Shown here one piece after another: positions 49,907 through 53,715 of a DNA stretch of 64,000 nt. The notes below the pieces were generated by a model that made no database searches, was not told where the DNA came from, and was given only the letters and a program-made list of their open reading frames with translations. A program made the position numbers and the translations under genes. Each line of letters opens with the position of its first letter. Position 1 is the stretch's first letter. The stretch is from Acinetobacter sp. YWS30-1 (GTDB lineage: Bacteria; Pseudomonadota; Gammaproteobacteria; Pseudomonadales; Moraxellaceae), in NCBI RefSeq assembly GCF_033558715.1, contig NZ_CP114606.1, positions 930,001 to 994,000 of the forward strand, written 5' to 3'.

Positions 49907-49912
49907 ATTCAA
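49907..49912 (-). promoter_or_regulatory. Outward -35 box of the IS element
   Basis: TTGAAT on the minus strand faces out of the left end. In ISAba125 this box is known to form hybrid promoters. Here a 17-base spacer would place TATTGC at the -10, so activity would be weak, and it would run antisense toward groEL. Confidence 0.55.
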
Positions 49913-50934
49913 ACATGAGGTGCGACAGTTTCAAAAGCCTTATGATAATCAACAAGCTGAGCAAATTTCTCTAATGGTGTAAGCCAATCTAAAGCTTTTC
50001 TAGGACGAGTATTCAGTGACATGGCGACTTGATTTAAATAATGCTGATCTGCCTGATTTAAATCAATCCCTTTAGGTAAATATTGCCTAATTAAACCATT
50101 CATATTTTCGCATGTACCTTTCTGCCATGGCGAATGTGGGTCACAGAAATATACATCTATGCCTAAATCTTCTTCGAGGATTTTATGTTCTGACATCTCA
50201 CGTCCACGGTCATAGGTCAACGTTTTACGTAGTTCTGCAGGTAAATATTTCAGAGCTTCAGTTAAAGCCTTGCGCACTGATTCTGCCTTTGCATCAGGTA
50301 ATGTTGCCAAGATACAGAGCCGTGTATTTCGTTCAATAAGTGTTGCTATCGAACTTTTATTGTCTTTACCTTTAATTAAATCGGCTTCCCAATGACCCGG
50401 TATTTTTCTTTCTTGAACTTCGGCTGGGCGCTCATGAATAGTTTTAATATCCTGTAATATAGAATCTTTTTTAGGTTCACCGTTAGCTTTTCGCTTTTTA
50501 TTTTCATGACGCAGACAGGATAATAAGTCTTTTTTCAACTCACCCTTTGGTAATGCTCGTATAGTTGAATAAATCGTTGTATGGCTTACATTCATTGTTT
50601 GATCCAAATCAGGAAATGTCTTTAAACGCTTTGCTATTTGCTGAGGAGACCATAAACAACGGATCGCTTCAACAATAAATCTCCAGAGAATTGAGTCGAT
50701 TTTGAGTTTTCTGTGACCGCGTCTACGTCTAGCGAAGGTGTTATCAGAAGCATATTGAGCTTGATAAACGTCATTGATGCTATTTCTTTTAAGCTCACGA
50801 TAGATCGTACTAGGATGTCTTTTAATGAGTTCAGCAAATTTTCTGGCTGAAAAGCCTTCTTTTCTTGACTCAAGCATTAATGCAGTACGATCTTCAAAGT
50901 TAAGATGATGGTATGACAATTTTATATACTCCAT
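49909..50934 (-). CDS. IS30-family transposase (ISAba125 type)
   Basis: The 341-aa DDE transposase has an N-terminal helix-turn-helix (KEGFSARKFAELIKRHPSTI, about residues 25-44) that includes a TIYREL-type recognition helix, and an rve-type catalytic core with the three acidic residues in GHWEADLIKG (about 176-185), LTYDRGREM (about 237-245) and GTCENMNGLIRQYLP (about 268-282). The stop codon lies in the left inverted repeat. The frame is intact, so the element is probably active. Confidence 0.95.
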   Translation of the reverse strand: MEYIKLSYHHLNFEDRTALMLESRKEGFSARKFAELIKRHPSTIYRELKRNSINDVYQAQYASDNTFARRRRGHRKLKIDSILWRFIVEAIRCLWSPQQIAKRLKTFPDLDQTMNVSHTTIYSTIRALPKGELKKDLLSCLRHENKKRKANGEPKKDSILQDIKTIHERPAEVQERKIPGHWEADLIKGKDNKSSIATLIERNTRLCILATLPDAKAESVRKALTEALKYLPAELRKTLTYDRGREMSEHKILEEDLGIDVYFCDPHSPWQKGTCENMNGLIRQYLPKGIDLNQADQHYLNQVAMSLNTRPRKALDWLTPLEKFAQLVDYHKAFETVAPHV

Positions 50935-51150: not shown

Positions 51151-51528
51151 TTACAATTGATTAAATTCATCAATCAACTTTTTAATAATATCTTTCTGGG
51201 TATTTTTTAAAGAGCGAAACTTTAAATAATAATCCAAATCTTCAGTATCATGTTCTGAAACTTGAGGGGCAGGATTAAAATCATGGTCTCCAAATCTTAA
51301 CCATTGGTTGGAAACATTAAGCCAAATTGCGAGTATTGCCAATTTATCTTGGCTAGGAATTGCCTTTCCTAACAACCAGTTATTTGCTGACTGTACTGAA
51401 ATAGCTGGACCGTCATAACGATAATTAAATTCTTTTGATAAATAAGTAGGACTTATAGGATGTCTTGCATTTGTTAAAGCACTTTTCAGCCGTTCAGCAA
51501 ATAGATTTTTTTCTTTTTGGCTGCTCAT
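51151..51528 (-). CDS. XRE-type / phage repressor-like DNA-binding protein
   Basis: The 125-aa protein has a helix-turn-helix domain in the first 75 residues (LFAERLKSALTNARHPISPT, then SVQSANNWLLGKAIPSQDKL). The pattern S-x2-S/A-x3-W-x3-G-x2-P-x4-L is that of lambda-Cro/CI-type regulators. The tail is short and acidic (VSEHDTEDLDYY), without a peptidase domain. It may control the adjacent small gene or the adhesin region to its right. It is convergent with, and overlaps by 14 bases, the IS-split ORF. Confidence 0.8.
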   Translation of the reverse strand: MSSQKEKNLFAERLKSALTNARHPISPTYLSKEFNYRYDGPAISVQSANNWLLGKAIPSQDKLAILAIWLNVSNQWLRFGDHDFNPAPQVSEHDTEDLDYYLKFRSLKNTQKDIIKKLIDEFNQL

Positions 51529-51876
51529 AAATTCCTTCTATCTATTCCTATACTTTTAAGCCTAGCCTTAAAAAGTATTTTAAATACTACAATGTTTCAG
51601 AGCCTAATTTTAAGAAAACTTCGAAAATATTTCAATTGTAACAACTTTATTTAAGATAACTTGTTGTAATTATTTGTAATGAATTTTCTTTATTTCTTAA
51701 ATCAAATTTATTTAGCTCAGCTTAATTCAAATATTAGTAAATAATTCTAACAACATAAACTTTTAGTTGATGATTATAATCCAATTATATATGCAATAAA
51801 AACATAAAGTTATACATATAAATTAATATTAAACATAATAGATAAATTAATATTTAAAAAATAAATCAAATTTTGA

Positions 51877-51904
51877 TTGATAAATTTGTTATGTTTTGTA
51901 TATT
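51877..51904 (+). promoter_or_regulatory. Putative promoter of the adhesin gene
   Basis: TTGATA (51877-51882) and TATATT (51899-51904) are 16 bases apart. A start near 51911 gives a leader of about 128 bases. Confidence 0.6.
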
Positions 51905-51910
51905 ATTGCC

Positions 51911-52016
51911 TCAGGACCGCGGTGGCGGTGGGGTATGAATGGCGTAATTCCCTTTTAACCACGCATTCGTAACAGTTTTGCTGGTTTACATGATCCTAGG
52001 GTAGGCCAGTCTTTTT
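51911..52016 (+). promoter_or_regulatory. Structured leader with terminator-like hairpin before the adhesin gene
   Basis: GC-rich DNA (ACCGCGGTGGCGGTGGGG) opens the leader. ATGAATGGCGT and ACGCATTCGT (about 51935-51970) can form a bulged hairpin. GCTGGTTTAC (51980-51989) pairs over 10 bp with GTAGGCCAGT (52001-52010) and is followed by CTTTTT. GTAAC (51969-51973) could instead pair with GTTTAC, breaking the terminator stem. The layout resembles a cis-acting riboregulator. Confidence 0.5.
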
Positions 52017-52038
52017 ATAAAAATTGAAGGAAATTTAT

Positions 52039-53715
52039 ATGAAATTTCAAAAAACCTTATTGGCAGCTGCATTAGCAGCAGTAAGTTTTGGTGCGCTAGC
52101 AGCAGTGAACCAAGCAGATGTAGTAAAATACGCAAATGCTGAAGGTGATGTTCTTGTTAAAGTAGAAGATGCTAATGACAGCAATGGGGTTGTTCAAAAT
52201 GGTTGGTATAAGCTTGAAGGCAATAAGCTAACAGCATTTACAGGTGAAACAAAAGATTACACAATCGTAGTGTCTGCTGGTCAAGTCCAAATTACAGAAT
52301 CAACTCCATCTACAACAGGTGGTACTACAACAGGTGGTTTAAGCTTTGATGGTAATGTAGACCAAAATAATTATTGGTCTTTTGGTGGATCAACCACCAC
52401 CACAACAACAACAACAGCCGGAACTTATACTCTTGAAGGTCAGTTAGTAAATACTGACTGGCATGGTAATAATGGTCTAGTTGATGAGAAAATCACTTTT
52501 ACAGGTGAAACATCACCAGCAACTACTGCAACTGATGTAGTTTCAGTTAAAAAAGATGTTCAAATTGGTAACATTACTGAAGAAGATCGTGATACAGCTG
52601 GTAAAGCTAAATACGATTTCACTTTAGCTGGAAAAAATGTTCAAGGTACTCTTGCAACAATTAAAACTGAAGCTGATGCCAATACTGCTGTAGCTGGTGT
52701 TACAGGCAATGGTTTAGCTGTCTTGGATGTGGCGAAAGGTGGAGTGGTTGATCTTGAGAAAGGTACAGTAACTACAACTTCAGTTACAGGCACTACTACA
52801 ACTGCACCAACAGCAGTACTAAATGCTTACGATGATAAAGATGGTAATCGTGTAGTTGAATTTAATGGTAAATATTTCAAAGCAACTGATAATACTTTGA
52901 CTGCTTACACTGGCGATACTAGTGATGCTAACTTAACTAAAGTAGGTAAAGGTACACCTGATGAAACAACTGGTGGCGATCGTACTACTACAGTAAATAC
53001 TGGTTTAGTATCAAATCTAAACGTTACCTATGGTGAGTCTGTTTCTAAAGCCCCAAATGCTGGTGAAATCAAAATTTCTAGTACAGACCCATTAGTTGCA
53101 AATGATACAAGTGGTAATAAATATACAGTAACTTCTAATGCTCCAGTATCTACATCAACTAAGGATGTAAAAACTGGCATTATTGCAGTAGATGAAGCAG
53201 GTAATAAAACTTACGGTTTACAAGCTACAAATACTACAGATGGTAAAGTTACAGCGCAAACTACAGTAACTGCAGCTGGTATTGAAACCACTGGTGACAT
53301 CGCTTTTGTTGACGCTGCTACTGGTTCAAAAACTTCTGTGAAAGGCTACTTAGAAGAAACTTCTAAAGCTGTTGATGCTAAAGTTGATGCTGCTCTAGTG
53401 GAAGTTGATTCTCGTTTAACTCAATTCAATTCTACAGCAGCTCGTTTGAACAGCCGTATTGATGACGTAGAGCAAACTGCTTACCGTGGTGTTGCAATTG
53501 CTTTAGCTGCTCAACAACAAATTCCTAACATCGGTGCTGGTCAATTCGCAGTATTCGGTGGTGTAGGTCACTATGAAGGTGAAACTGCCGGTGCTTTAGG
53601 TGTTGCAAGCGTATTCGCTGATGGCCGTACTTCTCTAAGTGCTGCTCTTGGTTTCGCTGGCGGTAACGAAGTTGGTGGCCGTGTAGGTGTTTCATATGTG
53701 TTTGGCGGTAAATAA
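52039..53715 (+). CDS. Compact trimeric autotransporter-like adhesin (YadA-type anchor)
   Basis: The 558-aa surface protein starts with a signal peptide (MKFQKTLLAAALAAVSFGALA). A Thr/Gly/Asp-rich passenger includes a run of eight Thr (near residue 118). It ends in a YadA-like anchor: a coiled-coil neck (VDAALVEVDSRLTQFNSTAA, then RLNSRIDDVEQTAYRGVAIA) and a four-strand barrel terminating GGRVGVSYVFGGK. Trimers of this class export their own passenger and mediate adhesion. The passenger is short and lacks the long stalk and head repeats of Ata or YadA. Residues 54-73 (NGWYKLEGNKLTAFTGETKD) recur at about 278-297 as NGKYFKATDNTLTAYTGDTS. AAGGAA precedes the start. Confidence 0.85.
   Translation: MKFQKTLLAAALAAVSFGALAAVNQADVVKYANAEGDVLVKVEDANDSNGVVQNGWYKLEGNKLTAFTGETKDYTIVVSAGQVQITESTPSTTGGTTTGGLSFDGNVDQNNYWSFGGSTTTTTTTTAGTYTLEGQLVNTDWHGNNGLVDEKITFTGETSPATTATDVVSVKKDVQIGNITEEDRDTAGKAKYDFTLAGKNVQGTLATIKTEADANTAVAGVTGNGLAVLDVAKGGVVDLEKGTVTTTSVTGTTTTAPTAVLNAYDDKDGNRVVEFNGKYFKATDNTLTAYTGDTSDANLTKVGKGTPDETTGGDRTTTVNTGLVSNLNVTYGESVSKAPNAGEIKISSTDPLVANDTSGNKYTVTSNAPVSTSTKDVKTGIIAVDEAGNKTYGLQATNTTDGKVTAQTTVTAAGIETTGDIAFVDAATGSKTSVKGYLEETSKAVDAKVDAALVEVDSRLTQFNSTAARLNSRIDDVEQTAYRGVAIALAAQQQIPNIGAGQFAVFGGVGHYEGETAGALGVASVFADGRTSLSAALGFAGGNEVGGRVGVSYVFGGK

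Follow-up and report, generated by a model that had tools for sequence, protein, structure and literature searches.

A conserved structured leader RNA upstream of a YadA-type adhesin gene in Acinetobacter

The window analysed here is a stretch of 64,000 nucleotides from the chromosome of Acinetobacter sp. YWS30-1 (NZ_CP114606.1, positions 930,001 to 994,000 of the forward strand), in which a gene for an adhesin with a YadA-type membrane anchor follows a short structured leader. The features of this locus, numbered from the first nucleotide of the window, are:

51151..51528, minus strand: divergent HTH-like regulator of 125 aa with weak resemblance to DicA, candidate partner of the palindrome
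51864..51878, no strand assigned: palindrome AATCAA-ATT-TTGATT over the -35 box, probable operator (AATCAAWWWTTGATT occurs once in the genome)
51877..51906, plus strand: sigma-70-type promoter, TTGATA - 18 bp - TATTAT, from a consensus scan
51916..51929, plus strand: P1, a hairpin near the RNA 5' end, ACCGC / GCGGT, in nine class I leaders
51937..51968, plus strand: P2, a variable bulged hairpin, GAAUG(G)CG / CGCAUUC, with 85% of cells paired
51973..52026, plus strand: outer extension of P3, CAGUUUU (51973-51979) with AAAAUUG (52020-52026), 90.5% of cells paired
51980..52010, plus strand: P3, a stem-loop of 10 pairs, 129 of 130 cells paired, with AUCCUAGGG (51993-52001) as its conserved loop motif
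52011..52018, plus strand: U-tract CTTTTTAT; in 13 of the 16 leaders the stem is followed by CTTTTT or TTTTTT
52026..52031, plus strand: Shine-Dalgarno sequence GAAGGA, read from the sequence, with the ATG at 52039
52039..53715, plus strand: adhesin of 558 aa with a YadA-type membrane anchor (Pfam PF03895 YadA_anchor, E 1.4e-9)

Adhesins of the YadA type are expected to act in attachment and in the formation of biofilms. An earlier note on this DNA had described a leader that is sharply GC-rich within AT-rich surroundings and that precedes an adhesin gene, and both parts of this description hold: GC content is 49.1% in the leader (51911-52016) against 17.8% in 51540-51904, and the product encoded downstream carries the YadA anchor. 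Promoter matches of the quality found by the consensus scan are no less frequent in shuffled sequence, and the -10 region aligns in all nine class I leaders. Judging from the sequence, RNA synthesis would start near 51912-51914, which would give a terminated RNA a length of about 105 nt. Elsewhere in the window, an IS30-family transposase gene (NCBIfam, 335 bits) lies at 49909-50934, between groEL and the HTH-like gene, an interval that has no transposase-sized ORF at two other loci (L102 and L092), and the Aar sRNA (Rfam RF02375, 66 bits) is encoded at 2435-2629 on the minus strand.

To describe the distribution of the leader, we searched 149 Acinetobacter genomes at the DNA level and obtained some match in 23, of which the window and 12 others were retained, each sited before an adhesin gene. 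Ten matches (L020, L021 and L023-L030) were dropped as chance similarity or as belonging to other genes. In addition, a covariance model of P3 (R1, 13 sequences) was run over 175 Acinetobacter genomes and gave strong matches, at 62.7 bits and above, in 14 of them and weak matches in three others. An adhesin match lies downstream on the same strand in 13 of the strong genomes, the fourteenth (G157, leader L065) also has the adhesin, and every one of the 14 holds a single strong P3 match. The weak matches in G143 and G074 were taken as chance, there being no adhesin ORF in the stretches read, and genome G035 carries diverged leader copies, L075 and, recognized by eye, L086a. The set described below thus comprises 16 leaders from 15 genomes. 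G035 also shows a third match (L078), at a contig end between adhesin fragments, as well as tandem adhesin paralogs (L086 and L087) with diverged leaders that have no U-tract.

A search of 348 genomes of the bacterial family, Acinetobacter included, returned at E 0.01 only two weak matches outside the genus (G274 and G313, 32 bits), and the seven element loci found on GTDB contigs are all from Acinetobacter. Plasmid sequences held no match to the element and viral sequences none to its exact pattern. We rejected a mobile repeat on the grounds that the genome itself holds a single full copy; at two other sites of the loop sequence ATCCTAGGG in this genome, the ORF lists show nothing related. 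Adhesin homologs are present in 38 of the 149 genomes, with long alignments reaching only about 40-50% protein identity. The groEL tree, with stars on 4 of its 17 inner branches, had weak resolution and does not tell gain of the element from loss.

We examined P3 in the most detail. Its arms, 51980-51989 and 52001-52010, pair with each other and are followed by CTTTTTAT at 52011-52018, in agreement with the 10-bp stem and CTTTTT described in the earlier note. P3 is more stable than shuffled sequence (z -2.0, with 10 of 300 shuffles equally stable); for the entire leader, stability is not out of the ordinary (z -0.82, 33 of 200). Two P3 pairs show changes on both sides, and the observed values were reached by 4 or 5 of 500 shuffles for four measures and by 65 of 500 for a fifth. 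Of the paired cells, 20 hold G-U, which read from the minus strand would give A-C mismatches; this indicates selection on the plus-strand RNA rather than on a DNA palindrome. The distance from the end of the P3 stem to the ATG is 26-32 nt in all 16 leaders, and conservation extends beyond the U-tract into an A-rich stretch ahead of the Shine-Dalgarno sequence.

Sequence identity was compared over 12 genomes (66 pairs) with motif-bearing leaders, a comparison from which G126 was left out and in which G157 and G035 lie outside the alignment. On average, the loop ATCCTAGG was 95.8% identical, the U-tract 94.1% and the stem 87.3%, whereas fourfold sites of groEL reached 61.9%; the alignment overall was 86.8% identical, compared to 85.9% over all groEL sites. 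Identity of the loop drops to 88.5% once G126 is included (78 pairs). The exact loop occurs in 11 of the 16 leaders and differs by one change in L013 and L016. It is absent from L022 (G126) and from L075 and L086a (both G035), the same three leaders that have no U-tract. L022 and L075 are diverged leaders that retain the stem without either element, and L086a, which resembles P3 by eye, has a predicted stem probability of 0.00 and is counted merely as a possible relic. Comparison between genomes shows the loop and the U-rich stretch downstream of it to be under strong selection, and this last hairpin of the leader has stayed nearly the same between distant species.

Upstream of P3, the nine class I leaders share two further hairpins. 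In P1, four of five pairs show double changes and 100% of cells are paired, the hairpin thus retaining its pairing and not its sequence. P2, whose arms are 51937-51944 and 51962-51968, corresponds to the bulged hairpin that had been noticed earlier and has two of seven pairs changed on both sides; the sequence AACCA (51957-51961) in its loop region is invariant in all nine. The outer extension of P3, with changes on both sides in one of seven pairs, is weak in class II leaders and is present in the minimum-energy fold and absent from the centroid; if it forms, the U-tract of the read-through RNA would become an internal bulge. Taken together, P1, P2, the outer extension and P3 have 94.2% of 258 cells paired in the class I leaders, compared to 31-45% in slid controls, and double changes in 8 of 29 pairs, a number that none of 500 shuffles attained; for further pair types, 86 of 500 shuffles reach the observed value. 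The GC-richness and the hairpins of the leader are real and selected, and the comparison shows P1 and P3 to be maintained as RNA on the plus strand. Ahead of P3, class I, class II (L016, L018 and L019), L017 and G035 each have a 5' part of a different kind. The class I leader L013 (G002) stands before a different signal peptide, MKLNTAFKLS..., as does the class II leader L016, and leader and passenger thus seem to have been exchanged between species.

The promoter region has a conserved feature of its own. The palindrome, AATCAAnnnTTGATT with an AT-rich spacer, has a single occurrence in its own genome, and the pattern AATCAANNNTTGATTGAT has 48 exact matches in 39 of 149 Acinetobacter genomes, compared to one match in total for a reversed control pattern. 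Twenty-two of the 48 sites lie within 5 kb upstream of adhesin matches on the same strand, in 20 of the 38 adhesin genomes, and their spacers are ATA (9), GTT (7), ATT (5) and AAA (1). The other 26 sites lie in other places, and in 18 adhesin genomes no exact match adjoins the gene. The palindrome over the -35 box, AATCAAnnnTTGATTGAT, recurs upstream of YadA-anchor adhesins across Acinetobacter.

The product of the HTH-like gene scores 26.3 bits against NCBIfam DicA, for which the cut-off is 101, and has no Pfam match. Homologs 46-80% identical to it adjoin the adhesin gene in all 15 leader-bearing genomes and at all six palindrome-bearing loci without P3 (L088, L094, L095, L096, L100 and L101), and at none of four adhesin loci without the palindrome (L093, L097, L098 and L099). 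Wherever ORFs were listed (the window, L086, L089, L090, L092 and L102), the gene is divergent from the adhesin gene. Its presence at 21 of 21 palindrome- or leader-bearing loci, and at 0 of 4 without the palindrome, makes the protein a candidate regulator; we infer that it may bind the palindrome, and initiation seems to be governed by the palindrome over the -35 box. In five of the palindrome-bearing loci without P3 (L088, L094, L095, L096 and L101), the leaders are unrelated in sequence and all fold somewhat better than shuffles (z -1.2 to -2.9), compared to z -0.1 to -3.1 for the 16 P3-bearing leaders. This mildly suggests that structured leaders have a general role in these adhesin genes.

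Its covarying stems, kept ahead of a single gene family, make the leader a cis-regulatory structured RNA, and it probably controls the amount of adhesin, more as a binding or translation element than as a riboswitch. In our model, the leader would act in cis to set adhesin output once transcription has begun. P3 and its U-rich flank would form a docking site beside the ribosome-binding site for a partner in trans. Candidates are RNA-binding proteins, for instance Hfq or ribosomal protein S1, at the U-rich part, a factor that recognizes the loop, or another copy of the leader pairing through the self-complementary CCUAGG. Binding of the partner would change ribosome access or RNase entry, and P1 would shield the RNA 5' end. 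As a separate layer, the palindrome over the -35 box would govern initiation, probably through the divergent HTH-like gene. We favour this reading, a post-transcriptional leader element with its loop bound in trans by such a partner, at a probability of about 0.45.

Several results argue for this post-transcriptional reading, namely the occurrence of P3 in 14 of 175 genomes, all 14 with the adhesin, the near-complete pairing of its stem, the covariation of P1, the identity of loop and U-tract, and the nearly constant spacing to the ATG. Further support comes from conservation beyond the U-tract, which a terminator does not need, from the stems kept without U-tract or loop motif in L022 and L075, and from a poor terminator score (see below). 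Other results count against it. Accessibility of the Shine-Dalgarno sequence is mixed among leaders (0.11-0.78), which also led us to reject its occlusion by the leader fold. Complementarity of the loop to the ribosome-binding site or the 5' leader is at shuffle level in most leaders, with P <= 0.05 in 1 of 16 for the former (L075, where the motif is absent) and in 2 of 16 for the latter (L013 and L014). In 13 of the 16 leaders the stem runs directly into the U-tract, which is the textbook shape of a terminator, and the U-tract is conserved like the loop; L086a is predicted to be without P3, and the joint loss of loop motif and U-tract fits a joint role in termination too. As to an sRNA partner encoded in trans, the full 9-nt complement of the loop, ACCCTAGGA, matches in its own genome only the other strand of the element itself, shorter seeds aside; over 13 genomes this 9-mer has 39 matches, of which 11 are the element and 28 are other sites in 12 genomes.

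The earlier note had taken P3 for an intrinsic terminator by shape, and we scored it with a measure of the d'Aubenton-Carafa type, which penalises a long loop and a C at the start of the U-tract. In 464 kb of the same genome, used for calibration, d exceeded 0 for 98 of 308 windows at gene ends and for 15 of 308 placed upstream, but for none of the 309 in mid-gene. The P3 of the window has d = -29.7, just above the mid-gene 95th percentile of -30.8. The shape therefore stands, with the stem and the run of U's in place, but the score does not bear out an intrinsic terminator. A leaky attenuator, in which P3 and CUUUUU form a weak terminator and read-through into the adhesin gene depends on a loop-binding factor or on P2 refolding (AACCA with UGGUU), is accordingly our second explanation, one that we hold to be doubtful. 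It would account for the shape, for the joint loss of U-tract and loop motif and for the 94.1% identity of the U-tract over 66 genome pairs, and it gains from L010 (d +6.4) and L013 (d +18.1), both with TTTTTTT, and from L018 (G083), where a second terminator-like hairpin (d -5.2) precedes P3 so that two stand in tandem; yet d is negative in 11 of the 13 leaders with a U-tract, the loop is 11-12 nt long, and L022 and L075 keep the stem without a U-tract. As to what might open P3, the alternative stem GTAAC/GTTTAC proposed earlier is present in the window, but is not conserved among the nine aligned class I leaders, where the counterparts of GTAAC in the other eight are GTCTC, ATCTC, GTCTC, AAATC, AACTC, AAAAA, ATCAG and GCTTG. 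A better candidate for this attenuator is the pairing of AACCA (51957-51961) with UGGUU (51982-51986) in the P3 arm, which is invariant in 9 of 9 and hence without variation; the class II leaders L016 and L018 carry ACCAG. Against it, complementarity of the leader to the P3 arm did not exceed the level of shuffles (combined over 13 of 16 leaders, Fisher's P was 0.22 by run length and 0.86 by duplex energy; L010, L013 and L065 were left out as near relatives of others, and L013 had a run P of 0.043). Antitermination of the RfaH/LoaP type finds no RfaH-like factor, as the genome encodes only one NusG-domain protein.

The remaining explanations fare less well. It is unlikely that P1 and P3 are passive, protecting the mRNA and holding upstream RNA off the ribosome-binding site with no factor in trans, as the hairpins of ompA-type leaders do: P1 keeps its pairing and not its sequence, and all five palindrome-bearing leaders without P3 fold somewhat better than shuffles, but the almost invariant loop and U-tract are left unexplained. 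The earlier suggestion of a riboswitch, with P1 and P2 as the aptamer and P3 as the expression platform, agrees with the position and overall build of the leader and with the maintenance of P1 and P2 in class I. We nevertheless consider it very improbable. A conserved aptamer would be expected upstream of a variable platform, and we found the reverse, the platform being constant: in L016, L018, L019, L017 and G035, P3 or its relic stands behind different 5' parts. In addition, no family of Rfam release 15, c-di-GMP and other riboswitch classes included, matches the leader at gathering score, the three matches below gathering scores in 51700-52200 having E 0.49-9.2; the earlier statement that no named class was known for it thus holds. 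That note had also reasoned that its proposal would fall if no terminated RNA were found and if the stems were not conserved in orthologous leaders, and the half that concerns the stems did not occur, since they are conserved among these leaders.

An attenuator with a leader peptide, in which translation of a short ORF ending at UAA, UAG or UGA inside P3 would open the hairpin, is the least credible of the readings. Several leaders (L009, L010, L012, L014 and L015) do have ORFs from ATG, GTG or TTG that end in ...ILG-stop inside P3, but these stop codons largely follow from the pairing of the stem with U's. The only listed ORF over P3 in the window starts with TTG 3 nt before the first C of the stem and has no evident Shine-Dalgarno sequence, and the ORFs of L009 and L010 are set apart by substitutions that change the amino acid and by one exchange of stop codons, no codon having changed synonymously. 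A more speculative variant, to which we attach very little weight, is that the loop would be a kissing element whose self-complementary CCUAGG joins adhesin mRNAs loop to loop, so that the chains of a trimeric adhesin would be made and assembled next to one another and the U-rich flank would control how ribosomes load onto the joined mRNAs.

Whichever mechanism applies, a leader hairpin as conserved as groEL DNA beside an adhesin of far lower protein identity marks a control point outside Rfam. The palindrome and HTH-like gene, together with the leader, suggest two-layer control, at the DNA and at the RNA, of one surface protein across the genus. No description of this adhesin leader was found in Rfam or in the literature searches, and the main text of PMC5094136 has no occurrence of adhesin or autotransporter. 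The leader is ordinary in kind, being a cis-acting leader RNA, and is a new family as far as Rfam shows.

Among known systems, attenuators of the trp/pyrBI type in Gram-negative bacteria have a leader between promoter and gene and a hairpin followed by a U-tract. The adhesin leader has the same arrangement but, unlike these, a weak terminator score, a long conserved loop and no conserved leader peptide or statistically supported antiterminator. The ompA-type 5' UTR of enterobacteria has one hairpin near the 5' end, a second near the ribosome-binding site and an adjoining A/U-rich stretch; the adhesin leader shares all three and likewise precedes an outer-membrane protein gene, a likeness of description and not of sequence, and differs in that its loop near the ribosome-binding site is almost invariant. 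In protein-binding leader hairpins, the stem is kept by compensatory change and the loop sequence is fixed, and P3 shows both features. Beside such hairpins, P3 stands out in that each of the 14 genomes with a strong match has only that one, so that an experiment to find its partner would be a clean one.
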